A stretch of DNA of 59,194 nt from Verrucomicrobiota bacterium (lineage in GTDB: Bacteria; Verrucomicrobiota; Verrucomicrobiia; Limisphaerales; Fontisphaeraceae). The DNA lies in the NCBI GenBank assembly GCA_037139415.1, contig JBAXGN010000017.1, positions 1-59,194 of the forward strand, read 5' to 3'. A program made the translations under genes and the position numbers. Numbering within the stretch: position 1 is the first letter of the stretch; every line of letters starts with the position of its first letter. Below the pieces are notes generated by a model. That model had not been told where the DNA came from. It saw only the letters and a list, made by a program, of their open reading frames with translations, and did not search any database. Shown here one piece after another: positions 20,989-59,194 of the stretch.

Positions 20989-23343
20989 ATGCCCAGCGAA
21001 GCTGATACCTGCCGAAAGTTTGTGCTGCCCAAGCTCTATGCGGCGGGGTGGAACGACGATCAGATTGTCGAGCAACGCTCGTTTACGGATGGGCGCATTG
21101 TGGTGTCCGGCCCGAAGGTATGGCGGCGGGCGCAAAAGCGCGCGGATTACTTATTGCGCTACCGCACAAACGTGACGCTGGCCGTGGTGGAAGCCAAGCC
21201 CGCGCACAAGACGCCCGGCGAAGGGCTCCAGCAGGCCAAGGAATACGCGCAAATCCTGGACCTGAAATTTGCCTACAGCACCAATGGGCATGGCATCGTG
21301 GAATTTGATTTCATCACCGGCAAGGAAACGGTCGCGGATCAATTCCCCACGCCGGAGGCACTCTGGCAGCGGCTGCATGGGCACCTGGGGCTGAACTCCG
21401 CCGCGCAACAGGAACAGTACCTGGCGCCCGGCCCGGCGTCGTCCGGCAAGCTACTCCGCTATTACCAGGAGATCGCCGTGAACCGCATCATCCGGGCCAT
21501 CCTCAACGGGCAGACCCGCGTGCTGATTACGATGGCCACGGGCACCGGGAAAACGATGGTCGCCTTCTACATCTGCTGGCGGTTATGGGCCTCGCGCTGG
21601 AATCGCAAGCACGACCCGACGCGCAAACCGCGCATCCTGTACCTGGCGGATCGGAATTTCCTGGTGGATGATCCCAAGGATAAAACGTTTGCGGCGTTCG
21701 GCGATGCCCGGCACAAGATTGAGGGCGGGGTGACGGTGCTCAGCCGGGAGTTGTATTTTGCGACGTACCAATCCATTGCCAAGGACGAGCGCCGACCCGG
21801 CCTGTATAAAGAGTTTCCCAGGGATTTCTTCGACCTCATCATCGTGGATGAATGCCATCGCGGCAGCGCGCGGGATGACTCGAACTGGCGGGAAATCCTC
21901 GATTACTTTGAGCCCGCGTACAAGCTGGGCATGACCGCCACGCCGCAGCGCGAGGAGAACAAGGATACCTACCTGTATTTTGGCAACCCGGTCTATACCT
22001 ACAGCCTGAAGCAGGGGATTGATGACGGGTTCCTCGCGCCGTACCGGGTGCACCGGGTGGTCACGCAATGGGATGCCGTCGGATGGCGGCCCAGCAAGGC
22101 CGAACTGGACCGGTATGGCCGGGAAATCCCGGATGAGGTGTACCAGACCGCCGATTTTGAGCGTCGCGTGGCGCTGCGCGCCCGCACGGAGGCGGTGGCC
22201 CGGCACCTGACGGATTTTCTGAAAAAGACCGACCGCTTCGCCAAGACCATCGTGTTTTGCGTGGACCAGGAACACGCGTTGGAAATGAAGACGGCGCTCA
22301 ACAACCTGAATGCGGACCTGGTGCGGAATTATCCGAACTACGTATGCCGCGTGACTTCCGATGAAGGGGACGTCGGGCGCGGGCACATGCAAAAGTTCCA
22401 GGATGTGGAGACGGACCCGCAATCCCCCATCATCCTCACCACCTCGCAACTGCTGACGACGGGACTGGACGCGCCGACCTGCCGGAACGTGGTGCTGCTG
22501 CGGCTGGTGAATTCCATGGTGGAGTTCAAGCAGATCATCGGGCGCGGCACCCGGGTGCGGGATGAGTACGGCAAGCTCTGGTTCAACATCCTGGATTACA
22601 CCGGCTCGGCCACGCGCAATTTTGCCGATCCCAAGTTTGATGGGGATCCGGCCTTTGCCACGCAGGAGGAGATTGACAAACAGGGCAAAGTGAAAGCGAC
22701 CGAGGTACTCACGCCGGAGGAACCTGAAGACGCCACCGGCGAAATCAACGAAACCCCTTCACTACAGCCTTCCAGGAAGTATTACGTTGACGGTGGGCGG
22801 GTGGAGATTGCGGCGGACCTAGTCTATGAACTGGACGCCCATGGCAAGCAACTGCGGGTAGTCAAGCTGACGGATTACACCGCGGAGAACGTGCGCACGC
22901 TGGCGGCGAACCCAGAGGAACTGCGCGCCTGCTGGACAGATACGGAGCGCCGGGCGGAGATCATCGCCCAACTGGCGGATCGGGGCATAGACTTTCAGAC
23001 AGTGGCAACCCAGGCAGGCAAGCCGGAGGCAGACCCGTTTGATCTGCTGTGTCACCTGGCGTACAACGCGCCACTGCTGACGCGGCGGCAACGGGCGGAC
23101 CGGGTGAAAAAGCAGGAAACGGCGTTCTTCAAGTTCTTCGGTCCGGAGGCGCGGGAAATTTTGAATGATCTGCTGGAGAAGTATGCGACGGATGGGGAAT
23201 TGCAGTTCACCCTGCCGGATGTGTTGAAAGTCCGGCCCATCTCCGATCACGGTAATGTGAATGAGATTATCGGGAAATTTGGCGGGACGGAGAAGCTGAG
23301 GAATGCGGTAAACCAGTTGCAGGAACTGATCTATTCGGCTTGA
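20989..23343 (+). CDS. hsdR: Type I restriction endonuclease subunit R (EcoEI-like)
   Basis: A 784-residue restriction/translocase subunit of the shorter, EcoEI-like class. The N-terminal nuclease has the PD-(D/E)xK pattern, with Asp53 (RADYLL) and Glu68-x-Lys70 (VVEAK). The SF2 helicase motor has MATGTGKT (182-189), DECH (287-290), GMTATPQR and the late motif QIIGRGTRVRD. The C-terminus (about 600-784) is the helical HsdM/HsdS-contact region. The gene seems intact even though the companion hsdM is frameshifted. The start MPSEADTCRKFVLPKL is the usual family N-terminus. It is followed by dispersed repeats rather than directly by hsdM. Confidence 0.93.
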   Translation: MPSEADTCRKFVLPKLYAAGWNDDQIVEQRSFTDGRIVVSGPKVWRRAQKRADYLLRYRTNVTLAVVEAKPAHKTPGEGLQQAKEYAQILDLKFAYSTNGHGIVEFDFITGKETVADQFPTPEALWQRLHGHLGLNSAAQQEQYLAPGPASSGKLLRYYQEIAVNRIIRAILNGQTRVLITMATGTGKTMVAFYICWRLWASRWNRKHDPTRKPRILYLADRNFLVDDPKDKTFAAFGDARHKIEGGVTVLSRELYFATYQSIAKDERRPGLYKEFPRDFFDLIIVDECHRGSARDDSNWREILDYFEPAYKLGMTATPQREENKDTYLYFGNPVYTYSLKQGIDDGFLAPYRVHRVVTQWDAVGWRPSKAELDRYGREIPDEVYQTADFERRVALRARTEAVARHLTDFLKKTDRFAKTIVFCVDQEHALEMKTALNNLNADLVRNYPNYVCRVTSDEGDVGRGHMQKFQDVETDPQSPIILTTSQLLTTGLDAPTCRNVVLLRLVNSMVEFKQIIGRGTRVRDEYGKLWFNILDYTGSATRNFADPKFDGDPAFATQEEIDKQGKVKATEVLTPEEPEDATGEINETPSLQPSRKYYVDGGRVEIAADLVYELDAHGKQLRVVKLTDYTAENVRTLAANPEELRACWTDTERRAEIIAQLADRGIDFQTVATQAGKPEADPFDLLCHLAYNAPLLTRRQRADRVKKQETAFFKFFGPEAREILNDLLEKYATDGELQFTLPDVLKVRPISDHGNVNEIIGKFGGTEKLRNAVNQLQELIYSA

Positions 23344-23349
23344 AACGAA

Positions 23350-23437
23350 GACAGGATGAACAGGATTTACAGGATACCAAAACTCAGCAGATAAGGGAGT
23401 TTGGATTTTCATCCTGTTCATCTTGTTAATCCTGTCT
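23350..23437. repeat. ACAGGATGAACAGGATT repeat unit 1 (inverted pair)
   Basis: A left arm ACAGGATGAACAGGATT... (23351-23375) and an inverted right arm CATCCTGTTCATCTTG... (23411-23437) enclose about 35 nt, so the unit can fold into a long imperfect hairpin. It begins 7 nt after the hsdR stop. Confidence 0.75.
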
Positions 23438-23462
23438 CACACTTCGCATGAGGCATGATGAC

Positions 23463-23488
23463 GACAGGATGAACAGGATTTACAGGAT
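23463..23488. repeat. ACAGGATGAACAGGATT repeat, single arm
   Basis: A single left-arm copy immediately before the GxxExxY gene (ATG at 23495). A linker with GCATGAGGCATGATGA separates it from unit 1; a related linker precedes unit 3. Confidence 0.7.
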
Positions 23489-23494
23489 ACCAAA

Positions 23495-23905
23495 ATGGAA
23501 GACCAGGAATTAACTGAAAAAATCATCGGGTGTGCCATGAAAGTACACTCCACGCTGGGACCAGGCTTTCTGGAATCGGTGTACCACAAGGCTTTGGCTC
23601 ATGAATTGCGCAAGGCTGGCTTGAAAGTCGAATGCGAAAAACCCATTACCGTTTATTACGACGGCGTTCCGGTCGGTGATTTTTCAGCCGACATGCTGGT
23701 TGAGGATCGGGTGATGCTGGAACTCAAAGCCAACCAAACGTTGGTGCCCGGCAACGAAGTCCAATTGGTGAATTATTTGACGGCAACCGGCACCGAAATT
23801 GGGTTGCTGTTAAATTTTGGCGCGGAACGATTGGAGTTCAAACGGAAATCACGAACCTATCGTCCCAAAAAGCCAGGACAGGGTTTGATGGATTCCAAAT
23901 TGTGA
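23495..23905 (+). CDS. GxxExxY family protein
   Basis: A 136-residue protein with the naming motif GFLESVY at residues 24-30. A PD-(D/E)xK-like core is visible: Asp66 (FSADMLVED) and Glu76-Leu-Lys78 (VMLELKA), followed by QLVNYLTATG. Proteins of this family are widespread, often found among mobile or defence genes, and resemble small nucleases, but no function has been firmly shown to my knowledge. The gene is flanked on both sides by ACAGGATGAACAGGATT repeats, as if it had moved as a cassette between hsdR and hsdM. The ATG is only 6 nt from a repeat arm and no good ribosome-binding site is visible. Confidence 0.8.
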   Translation: MEDQELTEKIIGCAMKVHSTLGPGFLESVYHKALAHELRKAGLKVECEKPITVYYDGVPVGDFSADMLVEDRVMLELKANQTLVPGNEVQLVNYLTATGTEIGLLLNFGAERLEFKRKSRTYRPKKPGQGLMDSKL

Positions 23906-23926
23906 CCCTGATATGGATTTTATTAT

Positions 23927-24010
23927 GACAGGATGAACAGGATTTACAGGATGGCTAAATTCGGTTGATAGTATTCGGAATTTCATCTTGTTCATCTTGT
24001 TAATCCTGTC
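23927..24010. repeat. ACAGGATGAACAGGATT repeat unit 2 (inverted pair)
   Basis: Left arm 23927-23952 and inverted right arm 23984-24010 enclose a loop with GGCTAAATTCGGTTGATAG. It has the same architecture as unit 1 and starts 22 nt after the GxxExxY stop. Confidence 0.75.
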
Positions 24011-24036
24011 GCACCCCGCATGCGAGGCATGATTAT

Positions 24037-24124
24037 GACAGGATGAACAGGATTTACAGGATAGTTAAATTTAGCAGATAAGAGAATTCTGTTTTTTCAT
24101 CCTGTTAATCCTGTTAATCCTGTC
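24037..24124. repeat. ACAGGATGAACAGGATT repeat unit 3 (inverted pair)
   Basis: Left arm 24037-24062 and inverted right arm 24098-24124 enclose a loop with AGTTAAATTTAGCAGATAAG. It is preceded by a GCATGCGAGGCATGATTATGA linker (partly shared with the linker before 23463). Confidence 0.75.
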
Positions 24125-24150
24125 CTCAAAATAAATATCCGGGTTGTTTT

Positions 24151-24176
24151 ATCCTGTTCATCCTGTTAATCCTGTC
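24151..24176. repeat. ACAGGATGAACAGGATT repeat, single inverted arm
   Basis: One right-arm copy 12 nt before the hsdM ATG. It occupies the position where a ribosome-binding site and leader would lie. Confidence 0.7.
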
Positions 24177-24188
24177 TTTAACAAATTT

Positions 24189-25768
24189 ATGTCGTCACCA
24201 ACCACAGCACAGTCGCTCGGGTCGTTGCTCAAGTCCGCGCGTGATATCATGCGCAAGGACAAGGGGCTCAACGGCGACCTTGACCGTCTGCCGATGCTGA
24301 CCTGGATCATGTTCCTCAAGTTCCTGGATGATCTGGAGCAGCAACGGGAGGAGGAAGCCAAGCTGGCCGGGAAGAAGTTCCGCGCCGCCATCGAGCCGCC
24401 GTACCGTTGGCGGGATTGGGCCGCCAAATCCGACGGCATCACCGGGGATGAGTTGCTGGCTTTTATCAATAACGAGGAGGCCACGCGGCCCGATGGCAAG
24501 AAGGGGCCGGGCCTGTTCCGGTATCTGCGCACGCTCACCAGCGCCAACGGGGATGACCGCCGGGAGGTGGTGGCCACGGTGTTCAAGGGCGTGGATAACC
24601 GGATGAAAAGCGGGTATCTGTTGCGCGATGTCATCAACAAGGTCGCCGGCATCCATTTCACCTCCAGCGATGAGCTGCATACGCTGGGTTCCCTGTATGA
24701 ATCCATGCTGCGGGAGATGCGGGATGCCGCCGGGGATTCGGGCGAGTTCTACACGCCGCGCGCGGTGGTGCGGCTCATGGTCACGGTGACTGATCCGCGC
24801 CTGGGCGAGACGGTGCTGGACCCGGCGTCAGGCACGGGCGGGTTCCTGGTCGAGGCGTACAATCACTTGTCCAAACAGGTCAAGACGGTGGCGGATCGCC
24901 GGGTGTTGCAGGAGAAGAGTCTGCTGGGGTGCGAGCCGAAGCAGTTGCCGTATCTGCTCTGCCAGATGAACCTGTTGCTGCACGGGCTGGATGCGCCGCA
25001 GATTGATCCCGGCAACGCCCTCCGGTTCAAGTTGACCGATATCGGCGAGCGGGAACGCGTGGATGTGATCCTGACGAACCCGCCGTTCGGCGGCGAGGAG
25101 GAGAAGGGCATCCAGGGGAATTTCCCGGAGGATAAACAGACGGCGGAAACGGCCATGTTGTTTTGCAGTTGATCATGCGGAAGCTGCGGCGTAATCCAAG
25201 TGGCAGCGCCGTCTCGGCGCTGAACAGCGGAAAACCAAGCGGCGGGACGCCGCTTCCACATTTCGCGCGGGCGGCGGTGGTGGTGCCGAATGGGACGTTG
25301 TTCGGGGATGGGGTATGCGCGCGGATCAAGGAGGAGTTGCTCAAGGAGTTCAACCTGCACACGATTGTGCGGCTGCCCAACGGGGTGTTTGCGCCGTACA
25401 CCAGCATCCCGACCAATGTTTTTTTCTTTGACCGGTCCGGGCCGACTCAGGAGGTGTGGTATTATGAGCAGCCGCTGCCCGAGGGGCGGAAGAATTACAC
25501 GAAGACGGCACCGATCCAGTTTGAGGAATTCGCGTCGCTCGTCGCCTGGTGGACCGACCGGAAGGAAACCGGACAGGCCTGGAAGGTGCCTGCCGCGGAA
25601 CTGCTGGCCAACGGGTGCAACCTGGACCGCAAGAACCCGAGCGCCAAGGAAGACATTACGCATCTGCCGCCGGAACAGTTGGCGGCGGATATCTTGAAGA
25701 AGGAACAGCGGATTGCGGAGATCATGGGGAAGATCAATAAACTTCTCAGCATGCAGAAGCATGGCTAA
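24189..25768 (+). pseudogene. hsdM: Type I modification subunit M with one frameshift
   Basis: Two overlapping frames together make one HsdM of about 525 residues. Part 1 (24189-25172) has the helical N-terminal domain, the SAM-binding motif DPASGTGGFLVEAY (near 210) and catalytic NPPFGG (near 296), ending ETAMLFCS. Part 2 resumes at QLIMRKL and continues through RAAVVVPNGTLFGDGV to the C-terminus. The break is at TTTT (25161-25164): one more T would restore LFLQLIMRKL. It could be a real inactivating or phase-variable change, or a homopolymer sequencing error. An in-frame palindromic insertion (25198-25260) adds about 24 residues near the break. The ATG at 24189 gives the normal family N-terminus. 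Confidence 0.85.
25198..25260. repeat. Double-hairpin palindromic element inserted inside hsdM
   Basis: Two perfect 8-bp stems lie next to each other: CAGCGCCG-TCT-CGGCGCTG (25204-25222) and AAGCGGCG-GGA-CGCCGCTT (25237-25255). Outer bases AAGTGG and CCACAT nearly pair as well. In the HsdM frame the element encodes about 24 residues (SGSAVSALNSGKPSGG within it) that interrupt the normal RKL...RAAVVVPNG sequence. Its length preserves the frame. Confidence 0.7.
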
Positions 25769-25779
25769 CCTCCTGACGA

Positions 25780-26052
25780 ATGAGCACCCACATTCAAACT
25801 CAAGTGCCGTTTCGACTGGTGATCGCAGATAAACGCACCAACTCGGAGGGGCTACAACTTGCCGATATGGTGGCGCGGCCGGTGGCGCTGTCGGTGCTCC
25901 GCCCTGGCCAACCGAATCAAGCCTTTGAGATTCTGCGTTCCAAATTGTGGCAGGGACCGGATGCCAGTGTGGAAGGATATGGGTTGAAATGTTTTCCCGT
26001 AAAAAACGAAAGGCCACCGGGAAGTCCCAGTGACCCTACGCCGAACGGGTAG
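25780..26052 (+). pseudogene. C-terminal remnant of a DUF3800 protein
   Basis: The 90-residue frame matches only the C-terminal part of DUF3800 proteins: FRLVIADKRTNSEGLQLAD, MVARPVALSVLRPGQPN, FEILRSKLW, GYGLKCFP. The N-terminal two-thirds, including the family's acidic residues, is absent. DUF3800 genes are often found between hsdM and hsdS in type I loci, so this is probably the decayed remainder of such a gene. It begins 11 nt after the hsdM stop. Whether the fragment is translated is unknown. Confidence 0.65.
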
Positions 26053-26137
26053 TCCCATTCCAAATCTGATCGAAACCTACTCATGCAAACCAGAAAATTC
26101 AAGTCCAATTCGCATAAAAATGAACACGATGGAAAAA

Positions 26138-26164
26138 GACAGGATGAACAGGATGGACAGGATG
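26138..26164. repeat. ACAGGATGAACAGGAT repeat copy before hsdS
   Basis: A left-arm-like copy ending in GGACAGGATG, 43 nt before the hsdS ATG. No paired inverted arm is present. Confidence 0.65.
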
Positions 26165-26207
26165 AAAACCGCCGGATGTGGATGGGATTTACACCGAATT
26201 TATTAGC

Positions 26208-27395
26208 ATGAGCAAAACGTGGCCAAAGGTGAGGTTGGGTGAGGTGTTGAGGCACCGCAAGGAATTCATCACCATTGATGACCTTAAAAATTATCGGCGC
26301 CCGCGTGTTCAGCTTCATGTTCAAGGCATTGTCCTCCGCGATGAGGTGCCCGGCGCACTCATTAAGACAAAAACTCAACAAGTTTGCCAGGCAGGCGAAT
26401 TTCTCGTCGCCGAAATTGATGCAAAGGTTGGTGGTTTTGGCATCGTGCCCATGTTCCTTGATGGCTCAATTGTCAGCAGTCATTATTTTCTGTTTGTCGT
26501 AGATGAGTCCAAGCTTGACCGACGATTTTTAGACTTCTTTATCCGCACGCCTACGTTTTGCGAACAAGTTGCTGCACAAGGCTCAACCAATTACGCGGCC
26601 ATACGCCCAACCCATGTTCTTGGCTACGAAATCCCGTTGCCGCCGTTGGCGGAGCAGCGGCGGGTGGTGGCGCGGATTGAGGAACTGGCCGCCCAAATTC
26701 AGGAAGCCCAATCCCTCCGACAACAGGCCGTGCAGGAGGCGGAGGCGATTGTTGCCAATCAAATCAAAGCATTATTTGACGATGGCCAAGAGTCTGGATG
26801 GAAATACGGTTGCCTTGGCGATTACGTCGTTGATGACTGCTACGGCACATCGGAAAAGACTCACGACGACAGTTCGGCCACGCCGGTTCTTCGGATGGGA
26901 AACATTCAGAACGGTCGGCTTGACACACGCTGCTTGAAATATCTTCACATAGCAGAGAAGGAGCGGGCGAAGTTGCTCCTTACACGTGGCGACATCGTGG
27001 TGAATCGAACGAACAGCGCAGAGTTGGTTGGGAAATGTGCAGTGTTTGATCTGGACCGTGATTTTGCTTTTGCTTCTTACCTTATTCGCCTTCGTCTTGA
27101 CTCCGACAAAGCCGACTCGCGCTTGGTTGCGTCATACATCAATTCGCCTGCTGGCCGTGCATATATGTTCAGCGAACGAAAACAGATGACAGGGCAGGCA
27201 AACGTCAACGCGACGAAATTGAAAGCGTTGCCAATCGCTTTGCCGCCACTTCCCCAACAACGCCGGATCGTAGCCGAACTGGACGCACTACAGGCGGAGG
27301 TGGATGCCTTGAAACGGTTGCAAGGCGAGACCGAAGTGGAATTGGATGCATTGCTGCCCGCTATTTTAGACCGGGCATTTAAAGGAGAATTATGA
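26208..27395 (+). CDS. hsdS: Type I specificity subunit S
   Basis: A 395-residue HsdS with two target-recognition domains. TRD1 starts at MSKTWPKVRLGEVLRHRKEF, the first conserved helix region is PLPPLAEQRRVVARIEELAA near 145-170, TRD2 follows, and the second helix region is LPPLPQQRRIVAELDALQAE near 345-365. It ends LLPAILDRAFKGEL, the normal terminus. It determines the DNA sequence recognised by the RM complex. The ATG at 26208 is preferred; an upstream ATG at 26178 would add ten residues with no family match. The next gene overlaps its stop by 4 nt. Remnants of a second hsdS lie about 550 bp downstream. Confidence 0.9.
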   Translation: MSKTWPKVRLGEVLRHRKEFITIDDLKNYRRPRVQLHVQGIVLRDEVPGALIKTKTQQVCQAGEFLVAEIDAKVGGFGIVPMFLDGSIVSSHYFLFVVDESKLDRRFLDFFIRTPTFCEQVAAQGSTNYAAIRPTHVLGYEIPLPPLAEQRRVVARIEELAAQIQEAQSLRQQAVQEAEAIVANQIKALFDDGQESGWKYGCLGDYVVDDCYGTSEKTHDDSSATPVLRMGNIQNGRLDTRCLKYLHIAEKERAKLLLTRGDIVVNRTNSAELVGKCAVFDLDRDFAFASYLIRLRLDSDKADSRLVASYINSPAGRAYMFSERKQMTGQANVNATKLKALPIALPPLPQQRRIVAELDALQAEVDALKRLQGETEVELDALLPAILDRAFKGEL

Positions 27396-50356: not shown

Positions 50357-50755
50357 TCAGTGATCCTCCGGGAAAATAAAGTCCACTTGGGGAAAATCCG
50401 AAAGACGGCGCCGGTCGTTAGTGAGGTGTTTCCAACCGAGATGCTGGGCCTGCGCCCGGATCATATAATCCGGCAACACCAAGCTGCCTTTTTCCTTTCG
50501 CACGGGATTCCTCATGAAATGTTGGCCTGCAATCCATGCCGGAGGAAAGTCAAAGTCCACCCTGTGCATACCTAAAAGATCCTCATCCACCTGTTCCTGA
50601 GTGCGGCCACCAGCCGCCAGTTCCGCATAAGTAACAGAACTTACCGCTAGTTTTTCTTTGCCCGCCCAATAAACCAAACCATCACGACAGATGACATGGT
50701 CACGATGTTGTCTATCCAGCCAGGCAACGATTACGGAAGTATCCACCAAAATCAT
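50357..50755 (-). CDS. vapC: VapC-type PIN-domain toxin
   Basis: A 132-residue PIN-domain ribonuclease. Acidic active-site residues are visible: Asp5 (MILVDTSVIVAWLD), Glu45 (VTYAELAAGG), Asp96 (LPDYMIRAQA) and Asp114 (LTNDRRRLSDF). Such toxins cut specific RNAs, often tRNA, unless bound by the antitoxin. The start codon overlaps the antitoxin stop (ATGA, 50752-50755), the usual arrangement for coupled translation. The toxin seems full length. Confidence 0.88.
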   Translation of the reverse strand: MILVDTSVIVAWLDRQHRDHVICRDGLVYWAGKEKLAVSSVTYAELAAGGRTQEQVDEDLLGMHRVDFDFPPAWIAGQHFMRNPVRKEKGSLVLPDYMIRAQAQHLGWKHLTNDRRRLSDFPQVDFIFPEDH

Positions 50756-50997
50756 TCAAGTCCCCGGGTTTGTTTCAAGAGATCAGTTCCTGAAATCTTT
50801 CCGCTCCATGTTCCTGCCCGCGCGGCCAACCTCTGTTGCATGGAGTTCAGATTGTTTTTATTGGGAGCACGCCCGACCACCGCACACCCTTTATCCAATG
50901 ACCAGACCAAGGTGGTGCCTGGCAACAAGTTCAGCTTATCCCGGATTTCTTGCGGGATGGTGGTCGTGCCTTTGGACGTTAACGTAGTCTCAATCAT
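50752..50997 (-). CDS. vapB: VapB-type AbrB-fold antitoxin
   Basis: An 81-residue protein with an N-terminal AbrB/SpoVT swapped-hairpin DNA-binding domain (TTLTSKGTTTIPQEIRDKLN, LPGTTLVWSLDKGCAVV) and a C-terminal tail that would bind and inhibit VapC (LAARAGTWSGKISGTDLLKQ). It should also repress its own promoter. A fitting operator with arms ATTCTTAC and GTAAGAAT lies just upstream. The ATG at 50997 is only 6 nt from a predicted -10 box, so the mRNA may be leaderless. Confidence 0.87.
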   Translation of the reverse strand: MIETTLTSKGTTTIPQEIRDKLNLLPGTTLVWSLDKGCAVVGRAPNKNNLNSMQQRLAARAGTWSGKISGTDLLKQTRGLE

Positions 50998-51081: not shown

Positions 51082-51825
51082 TCAACGCCGCACGAGGGTC
51101 TTGCGGGTTGCCGCTGCAAGGAACTGCCGCCGCTCCTCAGGGAGCGAGGAACCGAATTTGATGAGTTTTCCGTCGTTCAACTCAATGAGGATGTTTGTCT
51201 TGTCCTGTCGCCGCCCGGATCTATCGTACGAGGAGGCGTCTTCCATTCGCACCGCTTTGACTTCCCCGATTTTAAAGCGCCGGGACCAGCCAATCACGCT
51301 GAGACCGGTGAAGACCGCGCCTTCGTTTCCTTGGAGGCGTACTTCGGTGCGGCCCATCAGGCTGGAAAGGAACGCGCCAATCATGGCTGCGCCAATGACC
51401 ATGAACGGTGTGAGAAAGAGCCAGAGAAACAGTGTCATGCCCACGGTCATGGGCCCACCGTTCATCTTGGGGATCGGAAACCAATCCGGGGCGGTAATAC
51501 CGAGATGCTTCAGAGTGGCGCTGATGGCCAGCAGCACGAAGACGGACACAATCCCATTCCAGAAAAGCGAGATTCCCAGTGCTCCCAGCGCGGTGCCCAA
51601 CGCCCGATGGGACGCCCCGATGATCTGCTGCATACCATCCTTCCGGTACCACGTCCCCGCTGGGGGATGCGCCATATCCACCTGCGGGTCAAAGCCCGGG
51701 TCGCACACCATCTCCGAGAGTGGGTGCGCCAGGTTGCAGGCACGGCAATAGGCGACATTTCGGGCGACATTCACATCCTCAGCCGGGATCGTCTGCCCGC
51801 ATTGGGAACAGGTTGGTGTTGTCAT
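51082..51825 (-). CDS. Zinc-ribbon membrane protein coupled to hsdM
   Basis: A 247-residue protein with an N-terminal zinc ribbon (Cys6-x2-Cys9 and Cys27-x2-Cys30), two membrane segments near 78-105 and 125-150, and a C-terminal soluble beta-rich part (VRLQGNEGAVFTGLSVIGW, SYDRSGRRQDKTNILIELND). I do not recognise a named family. Its ATG overlaps the hsdM stop by 4 nt (51822-51825), placing it in the defence operon. A role as membrane sensor or effector of that system is possible but unproven; it could equally be a passenger. Confidence 0.65.
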   Translation of the reverse strand: MTTPTCSQCGQTIPAEDVNVARNVAYCRACNLAHPLSEMVCDPGFDPQVDMAHPPAGTWYRKDGMQQIIGASHRALGTALGALGISLFWNGIVSVFVLLAISATLKHLGITAPDWFPIPKMNGGPMTVGMTLFLWLFLTPFMVIGAAMIGAFLSSLMGRTEVRLQGNEGAVFTGLSVIGWSRRFKIGEVKAVRMEDASSYDRSGRRQDKTNILIELNDGKLIKFGSSLPEERRQFLAAATRKTLVRR

Positions 51826-53285
51826 GTTGAACTTGGAGTATTCAATTCCTCTTCGACGGCTTTGAACTCTTCCAGCGCTTCTTCCAAATCTTCGATGATC
51901 TCGGCCGCAAGCACAGCGGGCTTCGGCAAATTCTCCGTGTCCGCCAGGGTGTCGTCTTTGAGCCAGAAGATGTCGAGGTTGGCCTTATCACGAGCCATCA
52001 GGGTCTCGTAGGTGAAACGCTTGAACCGTTCGGATTCCACGCGTTTGGCGCGCTTGGTGGTTTGATAGCACTGGACGAAATCCTTAAGGTCTTCATCGGC
52101 AATCGGGTTCTGGCGCAGGGTGAAATTCTGATTGGTGCGCAGGTCATAGACCCATAGTTCCTTGGTCCACGGCGTTCTGGCGGCGGGTTTCTTGTCGAAA
52201 AACAGCACGTTGGCCTTTACGCCGGGGGAATACCAGATGCCAGTGGGCAGGCGCAGCAGGGTATGAACATCGCAGCGTTCCAGCAGGGCGCGGCGGATTT
52301 TTTCACCGGCCCCGGCCTCGAACAGCACGTTGTCCGGCACGACCACCGCCGCCGTGCCGCTATCGGTAAGCATCGAGCAGACGTTTTGCACAAAGTTGAG
52401 CTGCTTGTTGCTCGTCGTGGCCCAGAAATCCTGGCGTTCGTAGTAGATTTTTTCGGTCTCCCGCTTCCCGTCGTCGTTGATGACGGTGATGCTGCTTTTT
52501 TTGCCGAAGGGCGGATTCGTCAGCACCATGTCCACCGGGGCGGGCTTCTTGGCGAGGCTGTCGGCGGTCTCAACAATAGTGTTGTCGCTGCCACCCATGC
52601 CGTGCAGGTACAGGTTCATCGCGCAGAGGCGCGTGACGCTCGGCACAATGTCGGTGCCGCGGATGGCTTCCTCGTTCAGAAAGCGCTGGGCCTTGCGATC
52701 CAGACCGGGATTTGACTTTACCAGGTACTCATAGGCGGCCAAAAGGAAGCCGCCGGTGCCGCAGGCCGGATCGGCGATGCGCATCGTCGGCGCAGGGCGC
52801 ATGACTTGCACAATGGCGCGGATGATGGGGCGCGGCGTGAAGTATTGGCCCGCGCCGCCGCGCACGTCCTCGGCGTTACGGGCGAGCAGGCCCTCGTAAA
52901 TCTCGCCTTTCACATCCATGTCCAGCCCGGCCCAATTCTCCGAATCCATCAGGGAGATGAGCCGCTCCAGTTTGGCGGGGTCGGTGATCTTGTTCTGGGC
53001 TTTGGCAAAGATGATGCCGAGCAGTCCGGGCAGCTTTCCCAGCTCACGCAACGTGGCGGAATACTGGAGTTCCAACGGGTCGCCGGACTCTTTTTTGAGC
53101 GCGGCCCAGTTGTATTTCTTGGGGATAACATTCTCCAGGCCGAGCAACTCGCGCTCATGGGCCATCTTGAGAAAGAGCAGAAACGTGATCTGCTCGGTGT
53201 AATCCATGAACGCCAGCCCGTCGTCCTTGAGGACGTGGGCGTAATTCCAGACTTTTTGAACGAGGGCGGAGGCGGTTGCGGACAT
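51822..53285 (-). CDS. hsdM: Type I modification subunit M (second locus)
   Basis: A 487-residue N6-adenine methyltransferase. Helical HsdM N-terminal domain about 1-120, QYFTPRPIIRAIVQVM, SAM motif ADPACGTGGFLLAAYEY (171-187) and catalytic NPPFGKK (257-263). It appears complete, ending in an acidic tail. It would methylate sites chosen by HsdS. It belongs to a different subgroup from the hsdM at 24189. The ATG at 53285 (MSATASALVQKVWNY) fits; a TTG two codons before is less likely. It is the penultimate gene of the operon and lies 27 nt after the DUF1016 nuclease gene. A partial copy of its first 45 codons lies upstream at 54578-54766. Confidence 0.93.
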   Translation of the reverse strand: MSATASALVQKVWNYAHVLKDDGLAFMDYTEQITFLLFLKMAHERELLGLENVIPKKYNWAALKKESGDPLELQYSATLRELGKLPGLLGIIFAKAQNKITDPAKLERLISLMDSENWAGLDMDVKGEIYEGLLARNAEDVRGGAGQYFTPRPIIRAIVQVMRPAPTMRIADPACGTGGFLLAAYEYLVKSNPGLDRKAQRFLNEEAIRGTDIVPSVTRLCAMNLYLHGMGGSDNTIVETADSLAKKPAPVDMVLTNPPFGKKSSITVINDDGKRETEKIYYERQDFWATTSNKQLNFVQNVCSMLTDSGTAAVVVPDNVLFEAGAGEKIRRALLERCDVHTLLRLPTGIWYSPGVKANVLFFDKKPAARTPWTKELWVYDLRTNQNFTLRQNPIADEDLKDFVQCYQTTKRAKRVESERFKRFTYETLMARDKANLDIFWLKDDTLADTENLPKPAVLAAEIIEDLEEALEEFKAVEEELNTPSST

Positions 53286-53312
53286 AAGCAATAATGGTTG
53301 GTGTAATCGAAA

Positions 53313-54581
53313 TTATTTTTTGCGGCGTGCGCGGCCGGGGGCTTTGCTCCTGGCCGTGGTTTTGGGAACCGATGGCGGCAACAGCGCTTCCACTTGGTCG
53401 CGATCCCGTTCCAGAAACACCCGCAGTTGCTCCTCGGAAGGCAGCGCAGTCAGATAACGGGAGACAAAGAGCCGGTTGGCAATGCCTGCCGTGGCAAATT
53501 CCACCTCCACCCGGTCGCGGTCGCTGCACAGAATGATGCCCACCGGAGGATTATCTCCCGGTTCCATTCCATGCGCTTTCCACCAGTTTAAATAAAAGTT
53601 CATCTGGCCGGCGTCGCCATGTTGGAAGGCGCGAATTTTCAGGTCCAGCAGGACATGGCAGCGCAACCGCCGCTGGTAAAATACCAGGTCAATGTAATCG
53701 TGCTTGTTGCCCACCGTGATGCGCTTCTGGCGGGCCTCAAAACAAAAGCCGGTTCCCAATTCCAGCAGGAATGCCTGCAAATGATCCAGCAACGCCTTTT
53801 CCAAATCGGATTCCAGATACTCCATCCGCTGGGCCAGCCCGGTGAACTCCAACACATAAGGATCGCGAATCAAGTCTTCAATGGTCTCCTGCCGTTCCTG
53901 CCGATTTCCTCGGCGAATGACGGCCTCCTTGTTTTTCGACAACGCGGTGCGCTCGTACAACAGCGATCCAATCTGCCGCTGCAACTGGCGCTTGGACCAG
54001 TTACCCTTGAGGCACTCGTTTTCGTAAAACGCGCGCTTGAGCGGATCGTCGAGCCGGATGAGTTCCAGAATTTTGGTCCAAGAGAAGCGAAGCGCCAGAT
54101 GCGGCGCGAGCGGTGTTATGCCGATCGGTTTGCCGATTTCCTCACCACTGGTGGGGAAATTGTCTTTGTGCCCGGACGCCACTATGGAAATAGATTCGGC
54201 AACTGCTGCTTGGCCCATTCGGCAACCAGTGGTTGGAAAATCTTCGAGCGCTTTGAATTCCTGATCGAAACCCAATTTCCTCACCACCGGTGAGGAAATT
54301 ATCGAGCCGATCTGTGGATAGATCAGATAGAATTGCCGTGTTCGCTCAAGCATCTGCACGCTCAATCCGGTGAGACCTCTCTTCCGTAGGTCTCCCGCGA
54401 GCCGCTGGAGCAGTTTCGTCCCATACTTCGCCCGGTCCTCTCCCTGCTGCTCGAACTCCACAATATACGCGCCAACCAGCCAGTTGCGAATCACCAGGGC
54501 CTGGTTGACGGCCGTCACCGCGCGCCGTTGCAATTGCTGGCTGGCCGAATCAATCGCTTTGATCAGGTGGGTGTATTTCAT
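53313..54581 (-). CDS. DUF1016 PD-(D/E)xK nuclease (YhcG-like)
   Basis: A 422-residue protein. The N-terminal DUF1016 helical domain begins MKYTHLIKAIDSASQQLQRR and includes VNQALVIRNWLVGAYIVEFE. The C-terminal PD-(D/E)xK nuclease has YIDLVFYQRRLRCHVLLDLK (Asp...Asp-x-Lys) and GDAGQMNFYLNWW. These nucleases are often found inside type I RM loci; their exact role is unclear. The ATG at 54581 overlaps the stop of a small hsdM-derived frame (ATGA), which itself overlaps the HNH gene, so translation passes through the fragment. The gene appears intact and full length. It separates the fragment from the intact hsdM. Confidence 0.85.
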   Translation of the reverse strand: MKYTHLIKAIDSASQQLQRRAVTAVNQALVIRNWLVGAYIVEFEQQGEDRAKYGTKLLQRLAGDLRKRGLTGLSVQMLERTRQFYLIYPQIGSIISSPVVRKLGFDQEFKALEDFPTTGCRMGQAAVAESISIVASGHKDNFPTSGEEIGKPIGITPLAPHLALRFSWTKILELIRLDDPLKRAFYENECLKGNWSKRQLQRQIGSLLYERTALSKNKEAVIRRGNRQERQETIEDLIRDPYVLEFTGLAQRMEYLESDLEKALLDHLQAFLLELGTGFCFEARQKRITVGNKHDYIDLVFYQRRLRCHVLLDLKIRAFQHGDAGQMNFYLNWWKAHGMEPGDNPPVGIILCSDRDRVEVEFATAGIANRLFVSRYLTALPSEEQLRVFLERDRDQVEALLPPSVPKTTARSKAPGRARRKK

Positions 54582-54766
54582 GACATGGCATCCCGTTCGC
54601 AAATTTTGTTCGCCGACATATTGCACCCAGAAACCATTTTGAGGAAGTGCAGAAACGCGATCTGCTCGGCGCAATCCATGAACGCCAGCCCGTCGTCCTT
54701 GAGGACGTGGGCGTAGTTCCAGACTTTTTGAACGAGAGCCGAGGCTATTTGTTGATTGCTGCTCAT
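54578..54766 (-). pseudogene. Duplicated 5' fragment of hsdM acting as a linking frame
   Basis: A 62-codon frame, MSSNQQIASALVQKVWNYAH and on to FLHFLKM, then unrelated residues to a stop. From LVQKVWNYAH to FLKM it copies the start of the intact hsdM (53285 leftward), about 93% identical in DNA over roughly 100 bp. Its ATG overlaps the HNH gene stop (54763-54766) and its TGA overlaps the DUF1016 start (54578-54581). The original operon probably ran directly from the HNH gene into hsdM, and the nuclease gene entered here. Confidence 0.8.
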
Positions 54767-55689
54767 GGATTTGAATTCAAAAAATCTTCAAGCCAATCCC
54801 GTTTTATTTGGTGGCCTGCTTCTGTCTTGTAAATCTCGGCACGCGCGTATGCCAAGGAAGCTGCTGAATACTCAGTGTCTTTGTGGATCGCTCGAAGGAG
54901 TTCTTTTTGCTCTTCCTTGTAAAGGACACGCATTGTCGGGTCGGCAATTCTAGGCCTAAGGCGCTCCATATTTTGAACGAGTCGTTGAATCCGTCCAGCC
55001 AGAGGGCGACGGTCGTCAACCAGCTCCTTGCAGTGAAGATGATAGACCTCAATTGTAGTCGCTGCCCGATCATGCTCAGGTGTGCCTGCTGGCTTCGCGG
55101 GGGTTGGATGTCCGTCAGGCCTAAAAGTCAGAAGCTTCCAGTCGTCCGGATCAATCGGGTCGAGCAATTCAACTTCTTCCTGCTCGTAATCGTCTGTCTC
55201 CAACCGCGCCCGAAAGCTTCCGGGGCGAAGTGGGAAGTGATCCCACTTTCCACCACTGGTCTTGCTGACTTTGTCATTGCGGCGTTGGTTGCACCATTGA
55301 CTCGAAAGTCGGTAGTTTCGCCAATTGAACGCGAGCCACCAATACCCCTCGTGGTCGGGGTCTTCCTGCACACGGTTTTTCGGACGAAAGTGATCCACGT
55401 TCTTGTCTGAAGCCGGATTTTTGCTCTCGGAATACCAGCATTTCTCGTTGCGGAGAGCTTTCAAATGAACTGCCAAATCTCCCCAAATCTTTGGGCGACC
55501 CGTCGCGTTGGCAAATCCCGCAGAGATGGCATCTTTTCGTGCCTTGGCAATTCCGGCGGCGTTCTTGCCGGCGGCCCTTGCCGCAGCTTCCGCTAGCTGA
55601 ATCTCAGTTCGCAGGTCATTTAGCGCTGCGTCGGCACGCGCTTGCCAGCCGTTTGGCAACTGAAGTTGGTCAATGTCAATGTAACGCAT
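54763..55689 (-). CDS. ptuB: PtuB-like HNH endonuclease
   Basis: A 308-residue HNH protein of the TIGR02646 type, the nuclease partner of Septu and of some retron systems. The motif region shows EKCWYSESKN (Cys84), VDHFRPKNRV (Asp99, His100) and YRLSSQWCNQRR (Cys133). It should cut DNA or RNA when its ATPase partner is triggered. The ATG at 55689 has a perfect ribosome-binding site, AAGGAGGT (55698-55705), inside the end of the upstream gene and overlaps that gene by 14 nt. An upstream frame extension is not needed. PtuB normally stands next to PtuA; here PtuA is the C-terminal half of the HsdS fusion. Confidence 0.87.
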   Translation of the reverse strand: MRYIDIDQLQLPNGWQARADAALNDLRTEIQLAEAAARAAGKNAAGIAKARKDAISAGFANATGRPKIWGDLAVHLKALRNEKCWYSESKNPASDKNVDHFRPKNRVQEDPDHEGYWWLAFNWRNYRLSSQWCNQRRNDKVSKTSGGKWDHFPLRPGSFRARLETDDYEQEEVELLDPIDPDDWKLLTFRPDGHPTPAKPAGTPEHDRAATTIEVYHLHCKELVDDRRPLAGRIQRLVQNMERLRPRIADPTMRVLYKEEQKELLRAIHKDTEYSAASLAYARAEIYKTEAGHQIKRDWLEDFLNSNP

Positions 55690-58600
55690 GCGCTTCGACC
55701 TCCTTCTCAACTTCAGCGACTGCCTCGGCCAGAACCTCCTTGGCAATGCGGTCAATTTCCTCGGTGTCCTTCTTGGTTAAAACTTCCTTCCCAGCCATTT
55801 GCTCCGCATACCGCCTACCCCACGCCCGGACGAAGGCGGCGTAGTATGGATCGCTGAAAGCTTTCGAGAAACCGGCCTCCACCAATCGCTTGTCGATTTC
55901 CTCCAACATTTTCTTTTCTGGGCCGGACAGCTCCGTTTCTTTGGCAATCAAACGGACTCGGTTGTCGAGGTCAGCGAGAGTTTCAGGGTCAAGGTCGCTT
56001 CGGAAGCCAAACATCTCGCTCGTCAATATTCCAGTGAAGCCAAGTCCCTTCGGATTAACCGAGGCCTGCTCCCAGTGGCACACGAGAGTTTCCTGGTCGC
56101 GTTTGAGAAGATGAACTTGGTCTTTGAGCAAGCTCGCGATCACGAGCGGGTCGTGTGTCGCCATCAGAAGCTGACTTGTCTGCTGCTCAGGCGACGGGTT
56201 ACTGTCATCGCTTACGACTGAGGCCAAGTCCTTGAGGTATTCAACGCTCCAGTGCGGGTTCAAGTGCGTGTCCGGCTCGTCCAGCAGAATGAGGGATTGA
56301 TGCGACTTCGTGAACCGCATCAGGCCAAGGACCATGAGCAACTGCTGTTCGCCTTCGCTCAATTCCCGAAAAGTGATGGGAATATCTTGATTATCGGCGG
56401 ATTTGACGCGCACCTGAATCTTCACATCGTGAATTAGTTCACTGAAGTCAGTACTTTCCAGCGCGAGGAAGAACGAGCGCGCATCGGCATACTCCGCAGC
56501 GAACTCGTGCAAACTCTTCAGGTCGGGCAAGAAAAAATAATAAAGTTCCTCGCTTGGCAGCCGGTAGCCATCGCTGACCTTCTGCTTCAACACCATCGGC
56601 GCGACAGCGTAGCGCTTCAGCTTCTCCATCACCCGCCGCATGATCCCGGTTGCACCCCAAAAGTCTTCTGGTTTGCCTTTTGCCCAGCGCGGTTTGCGGA
56701 TCACGAAAAGCGCCGACTCAAAGCCAACAATCCGCAGTCGTTCTTCCAAGAAACGCCATATCTTTGGGTCTTCCTTATAGGAGAAGGCCAACAGCACATA
56801 TTTCGCGTGGTGTGTCTCGGCGCAAAAGAAGCGCCTTTGTTCTAGCAACCACGCGAGCGTCTTTGGGTCATCCGAACTTGCCGTTCGCAACCGATCATAG
56901 TGGTCACGTTTCATCGGCAAGAAATGTTCCGCCAGACGATTCGTCGGACCGGAGTAATAGCCGAATACGAACTTCGGCAGCAAAATGTTTTCCCGTTTGA
57001 CGGGCCTGAAAGCCTCGCCTTTGAACCCAGTCGGAAACTTTGCTTGGTGCACTTCAGGTCGTTTCATGGCCTGGGGATTCCAGTCCACCTTCACGATGTG
57101 ACCTTCAATTTCATACTCCAGGCGATAGCCAGCCATCGGCTCGTCGGTCCAATTGTTCTTCTCCCACCAGTAGTGCAGGTCGCGGAAGATGATGACGAGC
57201 GATTCAAACAGGTTGGATTTTCCCGTCCCGTTCCAGCCAAGAACAATGTCCAGCCCGTGCGCTGAATTGAAATCGATTTTGTAGTTTTTGAGATTCTTGA
57301 AATCCTCAAGCCAAAGACTCACAAGGCGAAATCGCCCCGGCTTCTGTTTGGTCTGCTTCGGCTGGACAGCGGAAACCTTCGACACAGCTTTCCCGCCTTT
57401 GGAGGCTGCCTTGAAAACCTCTACGATGTCGCGCGCCGTCCGCAGCAACCCGTAGAAACTCACCACTTGGTCGAGCGCAAAGCCGGCAGCTTGGAACAAC
57501 TTTTTAGCGTCAGGCGTTTTCCCGATTTTCTGCCACGCCTTCTGCAAAGCATCGTTTGTTGGAACGGATTGGTTCATATCGGAGGTCTCCTTCGTTCGTT
57601 TGGATGTGGTTTTGCCACGGGCCTTCCTAGCTTGCTTTTGTACCTCGGTGTCGGCGATTCGTGCGGCACGGATGCAGTCGAGAAGTGTTGAAGCGGGTTC
57701 ATCTTTTGAGTTTTGCGGAACGAGCTTGCCGGTGAAGGCTTCCCGCAAGAGCGATTGGCGCGTTGCGCGTGCGCGGTCAAGCTGGCGGTTGAGCGTGGTG
57801 GCCAATCGGTTAGCAGCGGCGAGACGACGATCAACTTCACGACTGATTTCGGACTGTTCGTCAACTGATGGCAAGGGAATGGGCAGGTTGCCAACCTTGC
57901 CCACGCTCAACGTGTAAAGACCCGTGGTTGAACTGGCAACCTTTTCGACATGATGCCTGCCGGGCGGCGAACATAACCAAGAGAGAATCCAAGCTCCCAG
58001 CGAATTCTCAATGAGTCGAACTTTGATAATGTGGTTTTGGTGGACGCATTTCTCAATCGATCCATCCCAAATAGCCAGCCTTCCAATTTGATCTTTACTG
58101 CCGTTGCCTTCGACAATGAGCAGGTCGCCCTTTTCCAAAAGCAGCTTATCGAATTCCTCCTTTTCCACACCGATTGTTTTGATCTCATCAAGGCGAAGCT
58201 CGTTGGCGTAAACATTCCCCACTCGCAGGTAAGGCAGCTTGGTGCGAAGCATTGAACGCTTCGGATTTTTCGTTAGCCCTCCCATGATGAAACCAAGCTG
58301 CTGTAAACCAGCCCATGCCCACCCTCTAGGCAACTGTGGCAAATCACCGCTATCAAGTTCCGCTGGCTCTTGATATCGCTTCTTCCACTTGTCGTCTTTG
58401 GGTGGTTTGCCGGCGGCGTGGAGGCGTTTGAGTTCGGCTGCTTCCCAGCGGGCGCGGCGCTCGATTAAAAGACGATCGAGGAGTTGTGCGCCAGTTTCAA
58501 ATTGGGATTGCGGATTGCGGATTGCGGATTGTTTCTTGCGCCAGTCGCGGGTGAGTTCGCCGGTGACGGCGGCGTGGAGGACGGTGGCGCGGTAACGTTT

Positions 58601-59134
58601 GAGCCGTTCCAAAGCCCGGCGCGCGGCGGCTTCGCCCGCAGCCACCCGTGACAGCAATGCGTCCAGCTTCGCCACAATCCGTTCCTGCTCTCGGGAGGGG
58701 GGAAGCAGATAAGGAAACATCGCCAACTTTTCAAAGTCCACGCGCGGTCGGTCGCCGCTAACTTGGTGGTTCGCGAAGTTCACGAAATCCTGTGAGTTAA
58801 GTCGGTAAGCAAAAAGTTGGCCGTTGAGTCCGTCCGTCTTTGGGAAGACGAGGAACTCCGCGGAGCACAGCCCATCGAACTCAGCGAGCCACACCTTGTT
58901 GAGGTAGGGACGCATCTTGCCGTAAAGCACGTCGCCTTGGTTGAACCTCACGGACGAACTTTTCAGACCGCTCGCAGAGCCCTGACCCAGCAGCTTCATC
59001 GTCTGGGCTTCGACATGCTCCATGCCCACATAGGGCAATTCGGGTACGTCGCTTGGCAGAGCACGCGCACGCGGCGGCACGTTGACTTCACCCAGCGTCG
59101 TCTTCACCCATCCTTTTGGCAGTTTATCAAGCAC
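55676..59134 (-). CDS. HsdS specificity subunit fused to a PtuA-like ABC ATPase
   Basis: A 1152-residue fusion. Residues 1-519 form a complete HsdS: TRD1 (LPKGWVKTTLGEVNVPPR), conserved helix (PSREQERIVAKLDALLSRV), linker, TRD2 (LPRGWAWAGLQQLGFIMGGL), second helix and the usual end (SLLREAFTGKLVPQ). Residues 520-1152 form an ABC/SMC-like ATPase of the Septu PtuA type: Walker A GWNGTGKSN (633-641), signature LSEGEQQLL (near 924), Walker B LILLDEPDTH (near 948) and His switch MATHDPLVI (near 988). HsdS reads DNA; PtuA hydrolyses ATP and controls the HNH nuclease. The start is a GTG at 59134 without a clear ribosome-binding site. The ATPase half has its own strong internal start at 57577. I know of no described natural fusion of these two proteins. 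Confidence 0.88.
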   Translation of the reverse strand: MLDKLPKGWVKTTLGEVNVPPRARALPSDVPELPYVGMEHVEAQTMKLLGQGSASGLKSSSVRFNQGDVLYGKMRPYLNKVWLAEFDGLCSAEFLVFPKTDGLNGQLFAYRLNSQDFVNFANHQVSGDRPRVDFEKLAMFPYLLPPSREQERIVAKLDALLSRVAAGEAAARRALERLKRYRATVLHAAVTGELTRDWRKKQSAIRNPQSQFETGAQLLDRLLIERRARWEAAELKRLHAAGKPPKDDKWKKRYQEPAELDSGDLPQLPRGWAWAGLQQLGFIMGGLTKNPKRSMLRTKLPYLRVGNVYANELRLDEIKTIGVEKEEFDKLLLEKGDLLIVEGNGSKDQIGRLAIWDGSIEKCVHQNHIIKVRLIENSLGAWILSWLCSPPGRHHVEKVASSTTGLYTLSVGKVGNLPIPLPSVDEQSEISREVDRRLAAANRLATTLNRQLDRARATRQSLLREAFTGKLVPQNSKDEPASTLLDCIRAARIADTEVQKQARKARGKTTSKRTKETSDMNQSVPTNDALQKAWQKIGKTPDAKKLFQAAGFALDQVVSFYGLLRTARDIVEVFKAASKGGKAVSKVSAVQPKQTKQKPGRFRLVSLWLEDFKNLKNYKIDFNSAHGLDIVLGWNGTGKSNLFESLVIIFRDLHYWWEKNNWTDEPMAGYRLEYEIEGHIVKVDWNPQAMKRPEVHQAKFPTGFKGEAFRPVKRENILLPKFVFGYYSGPTNRLAEHFLPMKRDHYDRLRTASSDDPKTLAWLLEQRRFFCAETHHAKYVLLAFSYKEDPKIWRFLEERLRIVGFESALFVIRKPRWAKGKPEDFWGATGIMRRVMEKLKRYAVAPMVLKQKVSDGYRLPSEELYYFFLPDLKSLHEFAAEYADARSFFLALESTDFSELIHDVKIQVRVKSADNQDIPITFRELSEGEQQLLMVLGLMRFTKSHQSLILLDEPDTHLNPHWSVEYLKDLASVVSDDSNPSPEQQTSQLLMATHDPLVIASLLKDQVHLLKRDQETLVCHWEQASVNPKGLGFTGILTSEMFGFRSDLDPETLADLDNRVRLIAKETELSGPEKKMLEEIDKRLVEAGFSKAFSDPYYAAFVRAWGRRYAEQMAGKEVLTKKDTEEIDRIAKEVLAEAVAEVEKEVEAHALH
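57575..57592 (-). promoter_or_regulatory. Internal ribosome-binding site and start for the ATPase half
   Basis: On the minus strand AAGGAG (57592-57587) lies 9 nt before an in-frame ATG (57577-57575). It encodes K-E-T-S-D-M at residues 515-520. It would yield a free 633-residue PtuA-like protein alongside the fusion. Confidence 0.6.
58501..58531. repeat. CCGCAATCCGCA repeat inserted in the hsdS linker
   Basis: On the minus strand it reads CAATCCGCAATCCGCAATC. It encodes QSAIRNPQS in the spacer between the two recognition domains. The same repeat occurs in intergenic DNA at 10200-10236 and 10566-10618. Confidence 0.6.
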
Positions 59135-59194
59135 AGGAAAAAAGTATAAAGCCAGGACCCCCGATAGGGGCTGATGCAGGAAGAAACTCTGGTG
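59135..59194. other. Window edge upstream of the HsdS fusion
   Basis: Sixty bases are visible upstream of the GTG start. No ribosome-binding site or clear end of an upstream gene was found, so whether hsdR lies further upstream cannot be judged. Confidence 0.3.

Follow-up and report, generated by a model that had tools for sequence, protein, structure and literature searches.

An in-frame fusion of a type I specificity subunit and a Septu PtuA ATPase in a Verrucomicrobiota bacterium, within a wider hsdS-ptuA-ptuB family

Septu type I is a two-gene system in which an ABC ATPase, PtuA, is followed by an HNH nuclease, PtuB. The targets of PtuAB vary between nicked phage DNA and tRNA-Tyr, the latter being cut by the PtuAB of Eco7 and of one Septu system (PMC11555353, PMC13096335). 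In retron type I-A, which is also Septu type II (Ec78, Ec83), PtuAB is encoded with a separate sensing module. The RT-msDNA of the retron restrains PtuAB, and loss of the msDNA releases it (PMC12948488). PrrC-EcoprrI and RloC place an ABC-ATPase nuclease system within a type I hsd locus. A single anticodon nuclease, PrrC is kept silent by the type I enzyme to which it is linked until Stp releases it (PMC2610378, PMC12707154). Type I restriction-modification (R-M) systems, such as EcoKI and EcoR124, contain an HsdM with N6-methyltransferase motifs and an HsdS with two recognition domains (TRDs) and two helical spacers. TIGR04435 is a hypothetical family called "restriction system-associated AAA family ATPase", a name indicating that ATPases of this kind had already been noticed in association with restriction systems; it is named in no paper found in the open-licence literature.

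The window analyzed here is a whole contig of 59,194 bp, and it carries an operon that can be compared with each of these systems. As in Septu type I, a PtuA ABC ATPase is followed by a PtuB HNH nuclease, and the motifs of both are intact (PADLOC E 1e-161 and 1e-76, respectively), but here PtuA is fused to HsdS and HsdM is encoded in the operon. HsdM and HsdS have the motifs and domains of a type I R-M system, but no adjacent HsdR was found in the fused relatives, and HsdS is extended at its C-terminus by an additional domain and by an ATPase head. As in retron type I-A, PtuAB is encoded with a separate module, but the partner is a DNA methyltransferase complex, and no reverse transcriptase was seen among the operon genes up to the contig end, 60 bp upstream of hsdS. 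PrrC is unfused to HsdS, whereas here the ATPase is fused to it and the HNH nuclease is a separate protein. TIGR04435 is the best NCBIfam model for the PtuA part, but the match lies below the cutoff (124.7 bits against 300). No account of an HsdS-PtuA fusion was found in open-licence papers, in agreement with the earlier note, which knew of none. A preprint on embedded defences (doi 10.1101/2024.01.29.577857), as cited by PMC12255303, may bear on the fusion. Both parent systems are known, and it is their joining that appears new, with an unusually testable sensor.

The fusion gene is a single frame that begins with GTG and contains no internal stop. From the N- to the C-terminus, it encodes a complete HsdS, a basic linker, a helical adaptor of about 80 residues, and a complete PtuA ATPase (Table 1). 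PADLOC assigned residues 3-526 to Specificity_I (E 4e-119) and residues 603-1143 to PtuA1, and Pfam found Methylase_S and AAA_21 in the same protein. The AlphaFold model of the fusion (mean pLDDT 82) agrees with this, and the coordinates and description in the earlier note proved correct. The HsdS half is modelled with an ordinary HsdS fold of two TRDs and two long helical spacers, and residues 2-471 align with the solved HsdS 5ybb_D (Z 22.5, rmsd 2.9, 371 residues). Residues 596-1046 align with solved PtuA of retron Ec83 (9o4a_A, Z 21.0) and of E. coli Septu (8ee4_D, Z 17.8); PARIS AriA and Rad50 score below these (Z about 15). Walker A (GWNGTGKS, residues 633-640), the signature LSEGEQQLL, and Walker B (LILLDEPD) are all intact in the PtuA part. 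The roughly 100 residues between the two cores are more than a plain linker. The model shows disorder in a basic stretch (507-522, pLDDT below 50), then an adaptor of four helices (527-579), and then disorder again (582-596). The adaptor gave weak and inconsistent matches against Pfam.

Table 1. Features of the fusion gene and its operon neighbours in the window.
Feature	Coordinates	Strand	Evidence or remark
HsdS-adaptor-PtuA fusion gene	55676..59134	-	1152 codons; ORF, Pfam, PADLOC, AlphaFold model
HsdS part, aa 1-506	57617..59134	-	PADLOC profile, structure alignment, region identities
HsdS sub-regions			TRD1 ~aa 1-145; central helices 146-268; TRD2 ~269-422; distal helices 423-506
Shine-Dalgarno AAGGAG, 9 nt before in-frame ATG at 57577	57587..57592	-	possible internal start
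Basic disordered linker, aa 507-519	57578..57616	-	low pLDDT and alignment
Helical adaptor domain, aa 520-582	57389..57577	-	related to C-terminal HsdS tail of separate-gene relatives
PtuA part, aa 602-1152, SMC/Rad50-type ABC ATPase	55676..57331	-	PADLOC, structure alignment, motifs
PtuB HNH nuclease, 308 aa	54763..55689	-	PADLOC PtuB1 E 1e-76
Duplicated 5' hsdM fragment	54640..54766	-	92% identity to 53162-53273
DUF1016/YhcG PDDEXK protein, PADLOC candidate PDC-S02	53313..54581	-	inserted between ptuB and hsdM
HsdM, N6-adenine methyltransferase subunit	51822..53291	-	N6_Mtase E 2e-62 (Pfam); MTase_I E 1e-183 (PADLOC)

The fusion gene is followed on the same strand by ptuB, a DUF1016 gene, and hsdM. 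As the earlier note had described, ptuB overlaps the end of the fusion gene (14 bp, 55676-55689). The HNH residues of PtuB (KCWY.E, DHxRPK, and N) are intact, the H and N being invariant in an alignment of 19 PtuB, and HsdM retains DPACGTGGF and NPPF. The position of the hsdM 5' fragment, with ptuB on one side and the DUF1016 gene on the other, looks as though the DUF1016 gene had arrived along with a duplicated hsdM start. DUF1016 is missing from the corresponding position in two fused relatives (L013 and L014), and it stands between hsdM and hsdS in L028, L034, and L036. Some 10 bp upstream of the GTG of hsdS, positions 59145-59194 form the end of a dispersed repeat that is common to the starts of contigs C28 and C208 and may be one end of an insertion sequence. 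At 58497-58531, hsdS contains a short dispersed repeat, ATCCGCAATCCGCAATCCC; it lies between both TRDs, is translated, and occurs at several dozen genomic sites. A second type I R-M locus at 20989-27395 may be broken, its HsdM being split over two frames (24144-25172 and 25163-25768). A gene pair for a PIN-domain toxin and an AbrB/MazE-type antitoxin is located near the defence operon at 50357-50997.

Relatives were sought in a scan of 84,980 genomes and in a search of Cyanobacteria (the phylum of L015). The scan returned six relatives whose PtuA part is 61-71% identical to that of the window, and the cyanobacterial search added one more. In all seven, a single uninterrupted frame of 1079-1158 codons encodes both HsdS and PtuA; two belong to Acidobacteriota and five to Cyanobacteria. 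The genome of the window looks like a third phylum carrying the fusion, and no second fused copy was found in 388 genomes of its phylum or 245 of its order. Phages and viral contigs yielded no fused or close relative; a phage record gave a single remote PtuA-like match, 23.5% identical. The eight fused PtuA group together in a tree of 39 such domains, in one clade with support of 100/100, every member of which is fused in frame, suggesting a single fusion event followed by transfer between phyla as the simplest history. HsdM is co-encoded in all eight. The ratio pN/pS was 0.29-0.71 across the linker and 0.34-0.63 across the adaptor. This deficit of amino acid changes relative to silent ones is the mark of purifying selection, and it indicates that the junction is translated in this frame and has been retained.

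The recognition domains of the fused proteins follow a different course from the ATPase. L013 and L014 share 92% identity in PtuA but 29% in TRD1 and 18% in TRD2. L016 and L072 share 25% in TRD1 against 86% in TRD2, while the window and L013 share 66% and 39%, respectively. Within the fused clade, both TRDs have been swapped independently of the remaining protein. Such an exchange is the pattern that would be expected of systems in which the target sequence matters. With the single fusion clade, the selection on the junction, and the adjacency of hsdS and ptuA in relatives, the swapped TRDs give good support to the proposal of the earlier note that recognition is physically tied to a Septu effector.

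The fusion is part of a wider hsdS-ptuA-ptuB family, which no paper found in the open-licence literature describes. In all 34 separate-gene relatives with readable upstream sequence, hsdS stands directly before ptuA, with ptuB after it, and the overlap of hsdS and ptuA is usually 4-14 bp. An HMM of the adaptor found weak matches outside the fused proteins in C-terminal HsdS tails (L060, L019, and L061; E 0.003-0.6). By eye and alignment, most of these HsdS tails consist of a basic linker followed by the pattern LF..A/S....V..FY..L, which is absent in the most distant members, L040 and L041. The tail domain is also absent in L086, whose HsdS has no ptuA beside it. The HsdS tail of L060 was modelled as a winged helix. 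Its structure matches are generic winged helices (Z 9-10), including the C-terminal winged helix of the kleisin ScpA (5h66_C, Z 9.1, rmsd 2.7, 66 residues). The ScpA winged helix binds SMC ATPase heads. As PtuA is a head of the SMC type, HsdS may dock to it through the tail domain, which is a reasonable hypothesis; the kleisin comparison is only a lead, winged-helix matches being generic. In L020-L039, the HsdS of many Pseudomonadota has an extra C-terminal domain of about 70 residues (MTKSRQDDDV...). This domain begins at an in-frame ATG that is conserved and frequently preceded by AAGGA, and this HsdS tail could possibly be made as a small separate product.

HsdR was examined around both groups of loci. 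The flanks of the seven fused relatives, covering about 8-20 kb on either side for six of them and 3.6 kb upstream for L018, contained no HsdR-like ORF. Of the 29 separate-gene loci that could be assessed, about 20 have HsdR as a neighbour. These counts are not independent, as the fused loci form one clade. The window is outside this count, its contig ending so close to hsdS. In the fused genome G691, a single contig of 4.75 Mb, neither an HSDR_N match nor a match to an HsdR protein was found genome-wide; in the L020 genome, the HSDR_N search did recover the HsdR that neighbours ptuA. Several HsdR genes are present elsewhere in the genome of the window, and most fused genomes also encode HsdR proteins elsewhere. 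The HsdR genes beside separate-gene loci indicate that PtuAB is not simply a replacement for HsdR across the family.

From the operon and its relatives, the locus is read, with close to even confidence, as a type I-like R-M module with a Septu effector in the chain of the sequence-reading subunit. Most likely, PtuAB serves the HsdM-HsdS complex as an effector of its own where HsdR would otherwise act. In the scheme that we infer for complex formation, docking, and the licensing and target of PtuB, two HsdM would bind the HsdS part and methylate the target sites of the host, while the adaptor and linker would tether the ATPase head of PtuA to the complex. Once HsdS meets an unmethylated, foreign site, PtuA would change state with ATP, and this change would license the HNH nuclease PtuB to cut nucleic acid. 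PtuAB would thereby take over the job of HsdR, and the separate-gene relatives would achieve the same docking non-covalently via the extra C-terminal domain of HsdS. The trigger suggested in the earlier note, unmodified DNA or blocking of HsdS, may be what sets the system in motion. The stronger form of this reading is held a little more tentatively: that PtuAB replaces the HsdR motor-nuclease, a methyltransferase complex with exchangeable target domains and an in-chain ATPase head licensing its HNH nuclease on unmodified DNA. The fully fused and well-supported PtuA clade, the selected junction codons, and the retention of PtuA during TRD exchange speak for an effector, as do the missing HsdR in the flanks of the fused relatives and throughout G691. 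So do the relatedness of the separate-gene HsdS tail to the adaptor, its absence where ptuA is absent, and the resemblance of the L060 winged helix to ScpA beside an SMC/Rad50-type head. Against it stand the HsdR retained beside most separate-gene loci and the HsdR genes elsewhere in the genome of the window, whose contig end hides the region before hsdS. A relative of the same order (L091, 4260-9030) also keeps an HsdM 86% identical to that of the window in an ordinary hsdR-hsdS-hsdM operon, which has no ptuA and whose HsdS carries a stop. The case is built from sequence and models, and its winged-helix matches are generic.

The main rival, which is doubtful but serious, is a guard comparable with PrrC-EcoprrI or the retron-Septu systems. 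HsdM-HsdS would keep PtuAB silent, and phage anti-restriction proteins or damage to the complex would free PtuAB to cut tRNA or DNA, so that the infection is stopped. The precedents of PrrC and of retron-Septu favour a guard, the cleavage of tRNA-Tyr by PtuAB fits it, and most separate-gene relatives retain next door the HsdR that a guard would need. However, the fused relatives have no nearby HsdR to guard, and their TRDs are exchanged as in target-selecting systems. The absence of HsdR and the exchanged TRDs favour a restriction effector, and it is mainly because of the exchange that an effector acting on unmodified DNA is preferred over a pure decoy or guard. It is improbable that HsdM and HsdS make up an ordinary type I core that relies on a distant HsdR, with PtuAB added as a second effector. 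The HsdR genes elsewhere in most fused genomes and the R-S-M operon holding a near relative of the HsdM would suit such service in trans, but none is detectable in G691 and the fused clade never keeps HsdR nearby. The earlier note had named a sequencing error and the lack of homologous fusions as grounds for refutation. An assembly or sequencing artefact or a one-off read-through is practically ruled out, because seven other independent assemblies, one of them a single contig, contain the same unbroken fusion, which is thus neither an error nor unique.

A further proposal concerns the products of the gene and is additive to the readings above. Besides the full fusion, free PtuA might be made from the ATG at 57577 and feed a PtuA-rich oligomer, which is possible although somewhat doubtful. 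This ATG is the best placed of 19 in-frame ATGs, given its Shine-Dalgarno sequence, and at this boundary most HsdS of the separate-gene relatives likewise carry an ATG, which AAGGA often precedes. The PtuA:PtuB stoichiometry of 6:2 in Septu (PMC12948488) would also suit an extra supply of PtuA. In contrast, none of the five cyanobacterial fusions has a good ribosome site at this ATG, and the boundary ATG is missing in L046, L060, and L061. Internal initiation yielding extra PtuA is possible in some members only, and as a general rule it is unsupported in Cyanobacteria. The ATG at 57577 is not favoured as the former start of PtuA, since the adaptor that follows it belongs to the HsdS tail in the relatives and separate PtuA begins at the ATPase core.

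The trigger of Septu is largely open, and in this fusion the likely sensor lies in the ATPase's own chain. The DNA sequence that this likely sensor reads is defined and exchangeable, and its methylation is open to control, which makes the switch directly testable. The HsdS adaptor domain, related to a winged helix in the relatives, offers a concrete docking hypothesis for the hsdS-ptuA-ptuB family, and an HsdS tail with an adjoining ptuA is a simple mark by which further members can be found. Action of PtuAB on unmodified DNA would make the locus a type I-like system that lacks the HsdR motor, and action as a guard would link Septu to PrrC and the retrons.
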